From Thermococcus sp. SY098 (GTDB lineage: Archaea; Methanobacteriota_B; Thermococci; Thermococcales; Thermococcaceae): 64,000 bases of DNA. This document shows, piece after piece, positions 7,391-26,068 of the stretch. A program made the translations under genes and the position numbers. The stretch spans positions 400,760 to 464,759 of the forward strand of contig NZ_CP141821.1 of assembly GCF_035621495.1 (NCBI RefSeq), read 5' to 3'. Every line of letters starts with the position of its first letter. The first letter of the stretch is position 1. The notes beneath the pieces were generated by a model that searched no databases, was not told the origin of the DNA, and was given only the letters and a program-made list of their open reading frames with translations.

Positions 7391-8485
7391 ATGTATGCAT
7401 TAATACTTGGAAAGAATCCTAAGCTGAGCGAAGCAGAGTTTTACTCATTTGTAAGAAGATTCGGACTCAAAATTAAGATTGTTGAAACTTCCCACAACTG
7501 GATAATCTTTGAGAGCTCCAAAAAAGTAGAGTACCTTTTTCACAAACTTGGCGGCGCACTGAAGCTTGTAAGAATCATAGGGAATGGGGAAGATGCAGTA
7601 AAAAAACTTACATATTCAAAGCTTTTTACAGTTAGCATCTACGGGAAAGAGGACTGGAAGCTCTGGAGAAAGCTTGGAAGCCAGATAAAGAAAACCTTCA
7701 AGAGTGAAGGTTCTGCTAAATTCTTTAAGCCAGCCAAGGTCTATGCTATGCCATCTGAACTAATTCTAAAAGGATTCCCAGAGACCAAGGATTTTGTGTT
7801 CATCTATGGAGAAAGACTCTGGGTGGGCGAGACGATAAAAACTACCGACCCATTTGAGCTGAAAAAGCTTGATGTTGAGAGACCAGTTCAAAGAGCAATT
7901 TTTTCAATCCCCCCCAGATTAGCGAGGATAATGGTTAATCTGACAGAGATTAGGCAAGGAAATTTCTTGGATCCCTTCTGTGGCATTGGAACAATAGTGC
8001 AGGAATTCCTCCTCCAAGGGCTGAATGCATATGGGAGTGACTCAGATCCTAAGGCAATTAAAGGAGCAAAAGAAAACCTGAAGTGGTTGAAGAAAGAATT
8101 TAAAGTCAAAAAAACCGCTCACTTAGAAGTGTGTGATGCCAGAAAGCTTAAGCGCTGCTTTAGAACTAAGTTTGATGCCATAGTTACAGAACCCTGGCTG
8201 GGAAAGCCTCTCAAGTATAATCCCACAAGGGGAGATGCCATACAAATGGCAAATCAACTTGACCGCTTTTATTATCAGGTCTTCGACAGTTTTAGAGACG
8301 TGCTTAAAAGAAATGGGAGAGTTGTATTTGTATTTCCAGCATACAAACTCAAGGATGGGAGGATATACAGGAAAGAAAGAAAATGGCTGGAAAAGCTTGG
8401 CTTTGAAGTCTTAGCGAAATACACTGACTTTGAGGAAAGGCATAGAGTGGTTAGAGACATCCATGTGCTGAGGTTTAAAGGCTAA
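7391..8485 (+). CDS. Trm11/TrmG10-like RNA methyltransferase
   Basis: A 364-residue protein. The N-terminal 170 residues are a THUMP-like RNA-binding region beginning MYALILGKNPKLSEAEF. The C-terminal half is a Rossmann methyltransferase with motif I DPFCGIGTI (about 194-202), YGSDSDP (acidic ribose-binding loop) and motif IV TEPWLG. In the tRNA m2G10 enzymes motif IV is DPPYG; TEPWLG keeps the xPW/Y geometry but changes the first residue, so this may be a paralogue with another RNA target. It is transcribed divergently from the helical-repeat operon. SAM-dependent RNA base methylation is a confident inference; the position is not. Confidence 0.75.
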   Translation: MYALILGKNPKLSEAEFYSFVRRFGLKIKIVETSHNWIIFESSKKVEYLFHKLGGALKLVRIIGNGEDAVKKLTYSKLFTVSIYGKEDWKLWRKLGSQIKKTFKSEGSAKFFKPAKVYAMPSELILKGFPETKDFVFIYGERLWVGETIKTTDPFELKKLDVERPVQRAIFSIPPRLARIMVNLTEIRQGNFLDPFCGIGTIVQEFLLQGLNAYGSDSDPKAIKGAKENLKWLKKEFKVKKTAHLEVCDARKLKRCFRTKFDAIVTEPWLGKPLKYNPTRGDAIQMANQLDRFYYQVFDSFRDVLKRNGRVVFVFPAYKLKDGRIYRKERKWLEKLGFEVLAKYTDFEERHRVVRDIHVLRFKG

Positions 8486-8487
8486 CA

Positions 8488-8922
8488 CTACAAATCTCCA
8501 AACAGCCTCTCGTGTTCTTGCTTTATACACCTATGGGCAACTGCAGTAAGTCCAGCCTCTTTTGCCTTTTTGAATGCTTCTCTGTTGTAGGTGTTAAACT
8601 GAAACCACACAACTTTTGCACCTTTCTCAATCGCCTGCTCAACATACTCCATTGTAAACTCTGGCCTTACAAACAGGTCAACAATCTCTACTTCACCGGG
8701 AATATCAAGCACGGAAGGATAACATTTTCTACCAAGCACTTCCTCGTATCTTGGATTTACCGGGATAACATCGTACCCATGATCCAGGAGATATTTCATG
8801 ACATCATAGCTGGCTCTTTCGGGTTTTGGAGAAGCTCCCACGAGAGCAATCCGCTTATATCTTGTGAGAATTTCTCGGATATCATCGTCTGTTAACCTAT
8901 CCAAAGGCATCTTCTTAACCAT
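8488..8922 (-). CDS. CoA-binding (YccU-type) Rossmann protein
   Basis: A 144-residue CoA-binding domain protein. RIALVGASPKPERASY (residues about 22-37) is the nucleotide-binding loop of the COG1832 family, followed by GYDVIPVNPRYEEVLG and VDLFVRPE. The C-terminal AHRCIKQEHERL is typical. The start at 8922 is chosen because AGGTGG lies four bases upstream; the longer in-frame reading passes through the promoter region. These proteins bind CoA, but their physiological role is not established. Confidence 0.8.
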   Translation of the reverse strand: MVKKMPLDRLTDDDIREILTRYKRIALVGASPKPERASYDVMKYLLDHGYDVIPVNPRYEEVLGRKCYPSVLDIPGEVEIVDLFVRPEFTMEYVEQAIEKGAKVVWFQFNTYNREAFKKAKEAGLTAVAHRCIKQEHERLFGDL

Positions 8923-21303: not shown

Positions 21304-22302
21304 CTACCTTTCTATTTTTAGTTCTTTCAGCTTCCTGCTGAGCTTTAGGTGGAATGTGAACTCATGGTAGATTGAGTTTTTTAAGAATTTCAGCTTAAGA
21401 TCGTTTAGCTTTACCTTTCCGCCAAATTCTCCAAAAATCAGGACATCTTCAACCCGTATTACACCAAACACCGCTGCAAGGTTAAAGAGCAGAGTTCTCA
21501 TCTGGTACGGAGTTGCATGATGAGTTGAAATCTTTTCATGAGGATACTCAAATAGGAAATATTCAACCCCTTCAAGCTCCGCTATGTCTGTCATCGCAAT
21601 ATCCGCTGTTAAAAGAACTACAAGGGAAGGCGTTTCTTTGTCGAACTGCTTAAGTGATTTAACAATAAGCTCATCATTAGTTCCCGACTCTTCGTGAACC
21701 CTTCTAACTTCTATTATCCTATCCTTTAATGCTTTAAATTCCTTAAGAGCAATATATGCGGCTTTTCTTGATTTTTTCATCCTCCTGTTGTGGAATTCAT
21801 CCAGAAGGTATGAGTTAGGGAGAATGCGTTTCAAAGCATTTATGTGCCCCAAATGGTACTTATAGTTCATTGACTGTTCAATTTCCCAGATAACAACATC
21901 AACCACTGCAAGCTCATACCTCTGGAGAGGGGTGTAAGAGGACACGAACCTGTGATAGAAAATATTCGTATCCAAAGCAAAGATAACTCTTTTGCTTAAG
22001 AGTGCATAGCTTTCCAGATGTTTTTCAAAATCGTCCAGATTGCTGTATTTTAGAATACCAGAAGCTAAAACGCACTCATGAAAATCTCTGTAGGTTGGGA
22101 GGTCGTGGAAACTGTCCTTTTTCTCTGACAGAATTCGAGAAAAATCCTCTGGCTGTGTCAAAGCCTCTATCTTGTATCCATACCCTTCTCTTCTGAACTT
22201 CAAAAGAGGAAAGTTCCCATAAAGTGGATATGAAACAACGGCATCGTCGGGAAGAAGGTTGAGCAGAATTTGAACTTCAGGCTTATCGACAATAATTTCC
22301 AC
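21304..22302 (-). CDS. PIN-domain ribonuclease of the CARF operon
   Basis: A 332-residue protein. The PIN core lies in the middle (about 105-260): FALDTNIF gives the first Asp, VVIWEIEQS the Glu, GTNDELIV the third acidic position and LLTADIAMTD the fourth. The N-terminal 100 residues and the beta-rich C-terminal 70 residues are of unknown type and could sense a partner or ligand. PIN domains are metal-dependent RNases. The GTG at 22302 is six bases after GGAGGG and two after the stop of the CARF-like gene, so the two are coupled. This pairing suggests a ligand-controlled RNase (see findings). Confidence 0.7.
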   Translation of the reverse strand: MEIIVDKPEVQILLNLLPDDAVVSYPLYGNFPLLKFRREGYGYKIEALTQPEDFSRILSEKKDSFHDLPTYRDFHECVLASGILKYSNLDDFEKHLESYALLSKRVIFALDTNIFYHRFVSSYTPLQRYELAVVDVVIWEIEQSMNYKYHLGHINALKRILPNSYLLDEFHNRRMKKSRKAAYIALKEFKALKDRIIEVRRVHEESGTNDELIVKSLKQFDKETPSLVVLLTADIAMTDIAELEGVEYFLFEYPHEKISTHHATPYQMRTLLFNLAAVFGVIRVEDVLIFGEFGGKVKLNDLKLKFLKNSIYHEFTFHLKLSRKLKELKIER

Positions 22303-22304
22303 CA

Positions 22305-22775
22305 CTATCCCTCCATAAAGTCCTCCAACTTTTGAGAATGGATGGGGATCATCATGTAAGGCCTGTTCGCAAACTGAAGATCTTTTTCTGCAAGGGCGAG
22401 GTAGAAAACATGATCAACCTTCAGCGGCACCCCATGAACAAGTGCTCCAGCCACTAATGCCTTCCTTCCAGAGGTTATGTCTATGGCTATTTCAAATCCT
22501 TTATCTTTAAGCTTTCTCAAAAGGCTCTCAACTTTTCTCCTTGCTTCTTTGAAGTTTGCCTCTTCTATGGTTATCACCTCAACCTTTGGTGAGAACCCAA
22601 AGGCAGCAGATATTATTTTAAGTGCCTCAACTGCAACTGGAATCTTGTCTTGATATATATCTTCAAGGAAAATGTAGATCTCATTGGGCTTGTACTTCTT
22701 CTCCATAACTACAGCGTAATATGCATTTATCATAGCCCATGTGGAACGACCGAGCATTGTTATATATGCCTTCAT
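22305..22775 (-). CDS. CARF-like sensor protein
   Basis: A 156-residue Rossmann-like protein matching the CARF pattern. The N-terminal strand-turn-helix reads AYITMLGRSTWAMINAYYAV, then EIYIFLED. The core DITSGRKALVAGALV corresponds to the D-x-T-G/S-G-x-K ligand-binding motif of CARF domains. CARF domains bind cyclic oligoadenylates and switch on attached nucleases. Here the domain stands alone and is immediately followed by a PIN gene. The start is at ATG 22775, or GTG 22781, with only a weak ribosome site. It follows the DUF2284 gene by 3-9 nt. Confidence 0.65.
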   Translation of the reverse strand: MKAYITMLGRSTWAMINAYYAVVMEKKYKPNEIYIFLEDIYQDKIPVAVEALKIISAAFGFSPKVEVITIEEANFKEARRKVESLLRKLKDKGFEIAIDITSGRKALVAGALVHGVPLKVDHVFYLALAEKDLQFANRPYMMIPIHSQKLEDFMEG

Positions 22776-22783
22776 TTTCACTC

Positions 22784-23245
22784 TTACTCTACTAATATCA
22801 ACCCATACAAAACACTTTCGCCAAAGTTCAGATCAACAATTTTGGAAAGCTCTATTCCTATAGCATCAATGGAGGGTCTTACCTTTGTTGGCATCCTGCA
22901 GTGTCCGCTCTTTTCAAACTCACACACCTCACAGAGATTGCAGTTTCCTGGAAAGAGAGCTAACACATAGGGATTCCCTTTTCTAAAAAGTTCCTCTTCT
23001 TTCTGAAGCAGATACAACAAGACTTTCCTCTTTTCTTCCTCAAAGTCCTCATAGTCAAGCTGGAACTTGAGCAGAAGGGCTTTCTTAAAATGCTTTATCC
23101 ATTCTTTACTTTCTTTCCAAGAAGGAGCATGTGGGGGGCACGAAGGGCTTTTACCATAAACTGGACAGGTTCTACATTTCCAGACGGGTCTGGGAGAGAC
23201 AACAATACTCCCAGTGTCTATTTCCTTTTCGTATATGATCTTCAT
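22784..23245 (-). CDS. DUF2284 metal-binding protein
   Basis: A 153-residue protein of the DUF2284 family of predicted metal-binding proteins. WKCRTCPVYGKSPSCPPHAPSW carries an N-terminal Cys group, and GNCNLCEVCEFEKSGHCRMP a second one with spacing suited to an Fe-S cluster. The ATG at 23245 has no clear ribosome site; an AT-rich element about 30 bp upstream may give a leaderless mRNA. It is first in the DUF2284-CARF-PIN operon. Its role is unknown. Confidence 0.75.
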   Translation of the reverse strand: MKIIYEKEIDTGSIVVSPRPVWKCRTCPVYGKSPSCPPHAPSWKESKEWIKHFKKALLLKFQLDYEDFEEEKRKVLLYLLQKEEELFRKGNPYVLALFPGNCNLCEVCEFEKSGHCRMPTKVRPSIDAIGIELSKIVDLNFGESVLYGLILVE

Positions 23246-24677: not shown

Positions 24678-24732
24678 TTGTTCCATAACATTTTTAACAA
24701 TCGAAGTTAGAATTAATTAGGGGGTGTTCTGC

Positions 24733-25440
24733 GTGGTAGAAAAGATTTCATACTTGATGGAACATTTTTCAAAGATCAAACCAGGAGAGATCGTTCTTAT
24801 AGAGTACACACCCGATTCATTTTACCCTATAGCGTTCTATGTCCTTGCTACATACTCATTGAAGCTTGGACTCCCTCTCCTAATCGATGATGTCTTAGAC
24901 ACACTACATCTTTATAAGACGTATCTCGATTTTGCAGGTCTGGATACGAATTTTTTATATAGTAAAGATGTCTTTGTGCTAAAAATTGGAGGACATAAAG
25001 AAGTTGGCAACGTGGTCTCTGAAATCAGACTTACCGGTGAGTTCTACATTCAGTATGAAAACTATAAGGCAGCTTTTGATTCAATACTGAGCCAGAGAGA
25101 TTTCTTTATAAACATAGTCCTTGGATTCGACAGGTTGACAGAGCTTTATCCTTCTTACCAGCGCTATCTGTTCCTTCTTACCCGAACACATTACCTCGGG
25201 AATAAACGAAGGACAGCCTTTTATTTTGTTAACAGAGAACTGTTAAAGAAAACACCTCTTGTGCTACCAATTTTTGAAGAGATATCAACAAGTGTCGTAA
25301 GACTTGAGAAAGAAAACAACACTACCCTGGTGACGTTTCTAAAGTCGCCCTATCCTTCACTTATTGGTTCCCAATTCGAATTCAGCACAGAGGAAATGCT
25401 GAACTACCTGAAGGAGGGACTTCAAGATGGAAGTTTTTGA
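24733..25440 (+). CDS. DUF257 protein (first of pair)
   Basis: A 235-residue member of DUF257, a family described from Pyrococcus and relatives. The common plan is visible in all three copies here: an N-terminal helix then PGEIVLIEYTPDS, LLIDDVLDTLHLYKTYL, VFVLKIGGHKEVGNVVSEI, VLGFDRL, GNKRRTAFYFVN and a C-terminal strand. This resembles a RecA/KaiC-like core without a P-loop. The GTG at 24733 is chosen because GGGGTG lies six bases upstream. Its stop overlaps the next DUF257 gene by 14 nt. Function unknown. Confidence 0.75.
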   Translation: MVEKISYLMEHFSKIKPGEIVLIEYTPDSFYPIAFYVLATYSLKLGLPLLIDDVLDTLHLYKTYLDFAGLDTNFLYSKDVFVLKIGGHKEVGNVVSEIRLTGEFYIQYENYKAAFDSILSQRDFFINIVLGFDRLTELYPSYQRYLFLLTRTHYLGNKRRTAFYFVNRELLKKTPLVLPIFEEISTSVVRLEKENNTTLVTFLKSPYPSLIGSQFEFSTEEMLNYLKEGLQDGSF

Positions 25441-26068
25441 ACTACTTGAGAGCTTTAAACGGGGAGAAACGGTTCTATTTCTATACCCCCCTATTTCCCC
25501 GTCGTACACTCTTCTGAAAAAGGTGGTGGAATACTGCAAGAAAAAGGGTCTGGATCTTTATGTGGCGGACATATTTGACATGCTGTACACATACAAAACG
25601 CAGTTGGAGTACATAGGAGTAGAACTCGATCTCAATGACGATAGAATATCTGTTATCAAAGAAGGGGGCAAGATACATGTGGGGAACGTTCTTAGCAGAA
25701 TCAGCGTAGATGAAGACGCAGCAATTCACCTGCGAAAATACGCGGAAGTATTTGAGAGCTCACTGCAAGACAGGGAATTCGTCTTTGATGTAACGCTTGG
25801 ATTTGATAAGCTCTTAGCATTCTACTCAGAAAGTCCAAAAGATTTGAATATGATCCTGATGGCAGTTAAGGATTTCGTTGGAAACAAAAAACGTACTGCG
25901 ATATATTTCGTTAATCAGGAAGTTGTCGCAAATATAGGGAATGCCCTGGAATTCCTGATAGATTCAGCAACTTCTGTGATAAAACTCGAAAAAGATGCGG
26001 ATGGATGGTATATCCGGGTCGTAAAGTCTCCAAAAATAGAGATAGTGGGAGCAAAAGTCAAAATTTAA
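25427..26068 (+). CDS. DUF257 protein (second of pair)
   Basis: A 213-residue DUF257 paralogue of the upstream gene with the same blocks (KRGETVLFLYPPISPS, DLYVADIFDMLYTYKTQL, ISVIKEGGKIHVGNVLSRI, VTLGFDKL, GNKKRTAIYFVN). It starts inside the end of the first gene after GGAGGG, so the two are translated together and may form a heterodimer. Its stop abuts the convergent SemiSWEET gene. Function unknown. Confidence 0.75.
   Translation: MEVFELLESFKRGETVLFLYPPISPSYTLLKKVVEYCKKKGLDLYVADIFDMLYTYKTQLEYIGVELDLNDDRISVIKEGGKIHVGNVLSRISVDEDAAIHLRKYAEVFESSLQDREFVFDVTLGFDKLLAFYSESPKDLNMILMAVKDFVGNKKRTAIYFVNQEVVANIGNALEFLIDSATSVIKLEKDADGWYIRVVKSPKIEIVGAKVKI

Follow-up and report, generated by a model that had tools for sequence, protein, structure and literature searches.

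Gene organisation of the locus

The window, by which is meant the whole 64,000-nt stretch of DNA analysed, contains three open reading frames on its minus strand at the positions given by an earlier note on this DNA: a DUF2284 protein (22784..23245, with ATG at 23245; PF10050, E 6.6e-33), a stand-alone CARF protein of 156 aa (22305..22775) and a PIN-domain protein of 333 aa with a GTG start (21304..22305), the last recognised by PF13638, a PADLOC profile and its structural model. The CARF gene is taken to start at the ATG at 22775, where its homologues begin, and its frame is open from a GTG at 22781. Its TAG stop codon (22305..22307, minus strand) overlaps the GTG of the PIN gene by one base (22305), and a Shine-Dalgarno-like GGAGGGA that would serve the PIN gene lies within the final CARF codons (22308..22314, minus strand). 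Together, and as read from the sequence, the overlap and the GGAGGGA constitute translational coupling of two separate proteins, as the earlier note had described. No CRISPR-like direct repeats were found in the 64,000-nt window, in keeping with its statement that no CRISPR locus is present there.

The CARF protein

That a stand-alone CARF protein is encoded here is borne out both by the profile search proposed as a check, which gave an E-value of 3.8e-72 to PADLOC CARF_m1--CARF, and by an AlphaFold2 model (pLDDT 92.0) that matches CARF structures; the match to Pfam Csa3_N (5.9e-5) fell slightly under the cut-off. The best 50 solved matches listed for the model are all CARF-type proteins (Z 12.2-16.0), headed by residues 1-137 of SiRe_0806 in complex with cyclic tetra-adenylate, cA4 (9jxx; Z 16.0, 2.3 Å over 134 residues). 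The putative ligand-loop motif T-S-G-R-K occupies residues 103-107 of the 158-aa frame, at approximately 22467..22475 on the minus strand; G11, T103, G105, R106 and K107 are invariant in a 34-row alignment, and T103, G105 and K107 also in a 24-row alignment. By predicted fold, profile and conserved ligand-loop residues, the protein is a member of the CARF superfamily (CARF_m1). It belongs to the stand-alone CARF_m1--CARF family already catalogued as PADLOC PDLC01971, an entry that describes the CARF alone, without an obligate PIN partner, Cas10 independence, or linkage to HAD or beta-CASP proteins. Matches of the CARF alignment profile to TAL effectors in the PDB were disregarded as sums of many weak repeat matches.

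The PIN protein

Sequence profiles place the downstream protein in the PIN group, with PF13638 (PIN_4) above its cut-off at E 1.1e-7 and the C-terminal part of PADLOC CARF_m1--CARF_PIN matching residues 70-298 at 3e-16; a sequence-profile search for solved relatives returned none. The AlphaFold2 model (pLDDT 92.8) comprises an N-terminal beta/alpha domain (~1-100), the PIN domain (~106-255) and a C-terminal domain (~256-329), and its top match, residues 152-418 of SiRe_0806 (Z 16.4, 3.6 Å over 241 residues), spans the whole protein, followed by isolated PIN domains, VapC-like ones among them, at Z 8-12. The four acidic positions that the earlier note had recognised are intact: neither a set of 41 Thermococcales proteins nor an alignment of 36 rows drawn from several archaeal phyla shows any variation at D112, E141, D211 or D235. 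On the strength of fold and an intact acidic quartet, this is a predicted PIN-domain ribonuclease.

Relationship to fused CARF-PIN proteins

SiRe_0806 of Sulfolobus islandicus (PDB 9jxw, apo; 9jxx, with cA4) is a single-chain CARF-PIN protein, and since the two window proteins match successive parts of it, the pair has this architecture in split form. The order of the parts and their folds agree over nearly all of both proteins, whereas the identity is 25% for the CARF and 17% for the PIN part and two proteins take the place of one chain. Binding of cA4 has been shown for SiRe_0806 and is no more than possible for the window pair; the models, in which CARF and PIN correspond to the two parts of a single-chain protein already known, speak to how the pair is built and not to its ligand. 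Among the papers searched, none dealt with SiRe_0806. Two CARF families with a fused PIN had already been described in a previous survey (PMC4012209).

A closer comparison is provided by the fused CARF_m1--CARF_PIN proteins of Thermococcales type III loci (PADLOC PDLC01973), for which a sequence search matched no solved structure. These are homologous throughout to the split pair and have the positions of D112, D211 and D235 in common with the split PIN, but they are single chains of 480-530 aa where the split form consists of two, and they are always found in genomes with Cas10 and beside it. The first ligand-loop motif of the CARF reads LGR[S/T] in the split form as against VGTS in the fused form, a sequence difference that may mean that the two bind different ligands. 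Trees built for the PIN part and for the CARF part both divide the proteins into a fused and a split clade, each with support of 100/100, and the split clade takes in Euryarchaeota, Thermoplasmatota, Thermoproteota and Helarchaeota. The branch between the clades is long, and the change may have been a fusion or a fission. CARF and PIN occupy separate ORFs in all Thermococcales loci examined, so the pair is not a fused effector. A 496-aa frame spanning CARF and PIN in a Methanosuratincola MAG (L101, 1587-3077) was first taken as a natural fusion and then rejected: its junction is out of frame relative to the near-identical split relatives L087 and L088, and the single frame is probably due to a frameshift there, whether genuine or introduced by assembly.

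Conservation of the pair

Amongst 94 Thermococcales genomes, the split CARF and the split PIN are each found in 80 and both in 79; in all 79 they are adjacent, on the same strand and in the same order, and the two cases with only one of them are matches at contig ends. Near-complete genomes carry the adjacent pair in 66 of 75 cases. The same order recurs outside Thermococcales in Archaeoglobus, Geoglobus, Methanosuratincola and other Methanomethylicia, Methanomicrobiaceae, Thermoplasmata, a Euryarchaeota MAG and a Helarchaeota MAG, and a strong PIN orthologue is present in 45 of the 392 genomes of a second sample, taken from the phylum of an Archaeoglobus MAG. Conservation of the pair, which the earlier note had made a check of its proposal, is therefore extensive, and such constancy of strand, order and adjacency across 79 genomes and other archaea is not chance.

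The pair is missing from g3 and from G035. In G035, neither CARF nor PIN is present at a locus that is otherwise undisturbed and where DUF2284 adjoins TIP49, which shows the pair to be absent as a unit. Evolutionary distances of CARF and PIN are correlated (Spearman 0.83, the highest among the CARF comparisons; those with an SDR neighbour, drawn from 9 loci, are uninformative). Thermococcales genomes keep the pair in single copy at one fixed chromosomal site among RNA-polymerase-factor, TIP49 and metabolic genes, and it evolves together with these neighbours; this stable placement in one copy, together with the vertical pattern, leans towards a housekeeping or stress role.

Individual loci show departures from the usual layout. 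In G077 the PIN gene is broken by an insertion-sequence-like insert resembling a transposase gene (L075, ~7594-8626; G077:C4:71578-72511), with the CARF gene intact. A small VapC-like PIN gene lies between CARF and PIN in a Geoglobus MAG (L083, 4714-5133), and the CARF-PIN spacing of that locus recurs in L122, L125 and L128.

DUF2284 and other neighbouring genes

DUF2284, which the earlier note had included in the putative operon, is present in every one of 74 near-complete Thermococcales genomes, even where the pair is missing, and does not adjoin the pair outside Thermococcales. Because it is kept where the pair is lost and is not found beside it elsewhere, it is a lineage-specific neighbour in Thermococcales and not part of the functional unit. 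A small predicted membrane protein of ~149 aa (L066, 6718-7167) separates DUF2284 from CARF in many genomes belonging to one genus.

Outside Thermococcales the pair has other companions. A HAD-type phosphatase lies directly downstream in 30 of 34 loci; within the same set a divergent RNase J-like beta-CASP nuclease occurs upstream in 10 loci, directly so in about half of them, and McrB/McrC lie directly upstream in 5 Archaeoglobus-type loci. The McrBC adjacency points to defence rather than housekeeping; with two partners of RNA-metabolism type and one of defence type, the role could be either.

Cas10 and other sources of cyclic oligoadenylates

Genomes were scored for Cas10 with Cmr2 and Csm1 profiles, counting matches above the cut-offs, and a general palm profile served as a check; statistics for Thermococcales refer to 75 genomes at least 90% complete. 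Cas10 is present in 24 of the 66 pair-bearing genomes in this set and absent from 42, the window genome (G000) among them; there, a survey for Cas10 found none by Cmr2, Csm1 or general palm profile. The Fisher p of 0.14 for pair and Cas10 has the wrong sign for an association. In the second sample a Cas10 palm occurs in 11 of 45 genomes with a strong PIN orthologue as against 56 of 347 others (p=0.20), and 34 of the 45 are without one, absence being weaker evidence here because completeness is not given. The co-occurrence with Cas10 that the earlier note had proposed to look for is thus seen in neither sample.

The fused paralogue serves as an internal positive control. Cas10 is present in 17 of 17 near-complete Thermococcales genomes that carry it (Fisher 4e-9), and, with incomplete genomes included, 17 of 18 fused paralogues lie 2.6-15.3 kb from Cas10 on the same contig, the eighteenth being on another, short contig. 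By comparison, in 26 of 27 Cas10-bearing genomes the split pair lies >160 kb away from Cas10 or on a different contig, the sole nearer case being G037 at 14.9 kb. The pair is independent of Cas10.

Another conceivable source of cyclic oligoadenylates, the minimal CRISPR polymerase mCpol (PF18182), exceeds its cut-off in 2 of the 94 Thermococcales genomes (L061 and L062, in G063 and G025) and not in the window genome. At 2/94 it was rejected as a general alternative source, and the pair does not belong to an mCpol or Panoptes-like minimal polymerase system.

Separate relatives of the PIN protein were seen ~5-6 kb from a Cas10 palm match in G250, G293, G347, G394, G399 and G456. They are mostly distant (E 1e-17 to 1e-33; 1.8e-86 in G347) and, judged by their sequences, possibly form a branch of this PIN family that is linked to type III systems. 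A Methanosuratincola locus (L087, 2776-3543) also encodes a weakly Csa3-like (CARF) protein just upstream of the pair, with TIGR01884 at 1.2e-5, below the cut-off.

Proposed mechanism and alternative explanations

The reading that we favour, and think fairly probable, is that the pair forms a Cas10-independent, ligand-gated two-subunit RNase that acts in RNA decay, stress or CRISPR-independent defence. It is built upon the folds, the intact PIN quartet and conserved CARF loop, strict pairing, coupling, joint loss and independence of Cas10; from these we infer a physical complex with RNase activity, its gating, its ligand and its role. A CARF dimer would have as its ligand a small nucleotide or the end of an RNA; once the CARF was occupied, the PIN subunit, its metal-binding acidic quartet intact, would cut RNA. 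As most pair-bearing hosts are without Cas10, the signal in those hosts cannot come from it, and the ligand would be made or released by something else. Candidates are oligoadenylates, linear or cyclic, that arise as RNA is broken down, or RNA with a 2',3'-cyclic phosphate end, and the physiological role would lie in RNA decay under stress or in CRISPR-independent defence. Against this reading, the pair is dispensable, being missing in g3 and G035, and its PIN gene is interrupted in G077; moreover, a CARF pocket that resembles those binding cA4 could still bind it in the minority of hosts with Cas10. There is a precedent in RtcR, a CRISPR-independent CARF protein that binds tRNA fragments ending in 2',3'-cyclic phosphate (PMC7790460). 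RtcR resembles the proposed system in that its CARF works without CRISPR and answers to RNA damage; unlike the pair, it is a transcription activator with AAA+ and HTH parts and a divergent CARF, and without a PIN.

The earlier note offered two possibilities, an auxiliary type III effector and an independent abortive-defence or RNA-decay system, and the evidence favours the latter, most pair-bearing genomes having no Cas10. Were the pair a type III effector acting in trans, its CARF would sense cyclic oligoadenylates made by Cas10 and activate the PIN protein. The CARF fold does match many CARFs bound to such ligands, cA4 is bound in the structure of the nearest full-length match, SiRe_0806, the fused paralogue goes with Cas10, and close or distant PIN relatives lie near Cas10-palm matches in G347, G250, G293, G399 and G456. 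As a main role this is nonetheless improbable given that 42 of 66 near-complete pair-bearing genomes, that of the window included, do without Cas10, that 26 of 27 pairs are remote from it where it exists and that the second sample shows no association; with no repeats in the window either, the pair is not classed as an auxiliary type III effector. An antiviral or abortive defence module independent of CRISPR, with a signal of its own and linked, for example, to McrBC-like restriction, is a more serious contender, though still rather unlikely. McrB/McrC adjoin 5 Archaeoglobus-type loci, CARF and PIN are common parts of defence systems, and the losses are patchy; yet McrBC is absent at most loci, the Thermococcales pair keeps a single copy at a fixed site and co-evolves with the RNA-polymerase-factor, TIP49 and metabolic genes around it, and a search for CARF relatives on viral contigs, reaching close relatives only, found none.

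Two further explanations divide the labour between the proteins differently. VapBC systems likewise have a small gene upstream of, and coupled to, that of a PIN nuclease, and the PIN domain resembles VapC among others, so that the CARF might be a protein inhibitor of a toxic nuclease rather than a ligand sensor. We regard such a toxin-antitoxin-like pair as very unlikely: the upstream gene encodes a CARF whose ligand-loop motif is conserved, and not a DNA-binding antitoxin of the VapB type; inheritance is vertical, in single copy at a fixed site; and the 333-aa PIN protein carries additional conserved domains at its N and C termini that it has in common with SiRe_0806. The pair was accordingly not assigned to VapBC. 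Alternatively, the CARF may chiefly be a ring nuclease that erases a signal, with the PIN protein acting independently. Its profile matches the ring nuclease SSO2081 (E 4.7e-6) and its K107 aligns by sequence with K169 of the ring nuclease Sis0811, but strict pairing, joint loss and the existence of fused forms argue for one machine, and a source of cyclic oligoadenylates is absent in most hosts, making this the least probable account, and a very doubtful one.

Returning to the ligand-gated RNase, a broader and only tentative version can be framed, possible but on balance not expected: an archaeal RNA-surveillance machine of at least four phyla, in which the CARF would sense a breakdown product of the cell's own RNA and switch on the PIN protein, together with the HAD phosphatase and sometimes the RNase J-like nuclease. 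With the fused, Cas10-linked CARF-PIN proteins as a sister lineage, the split pair could be a CRISPR-independent branch of fused-effector signalling, or its source.

Significance

A CARF domain is almost automatically taken to sense cyclic oligoadenylates made by Cas10. Here, a CARF-PIN pair is kept across archaeal phyla mostly without Cas10, whereas the fused paralogue in Thermococcales tracks Cas10 perfectly, and this contrast makes it testable what CARF proteins sense where there is no CRISPR polymerase and whether type III effectors arose from such systems. Hyperthermophiles that have no Cas10 offer a clean host in which to test CARF sensing, and genome surveys in which a stand-alone CARF is scored as a type III component would have to be corrected. 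Whilst the individual parts are already known, the stand-alone CARF (CARF_m1) from the defence catalogue PADLOC, what appears to be new is the obligate split pair, its Cas10 independence with the fused paralogue as control, and the linkage to HAD and beta-CASP proteins.

Other genes in the window

Elsewhere in the window, at 24724-26068, two neighbouring plus-strand genes (238 and 213 aa) are apparent tandem paralogues of one another, and a homologue of both is found at L072, 2507-3202.
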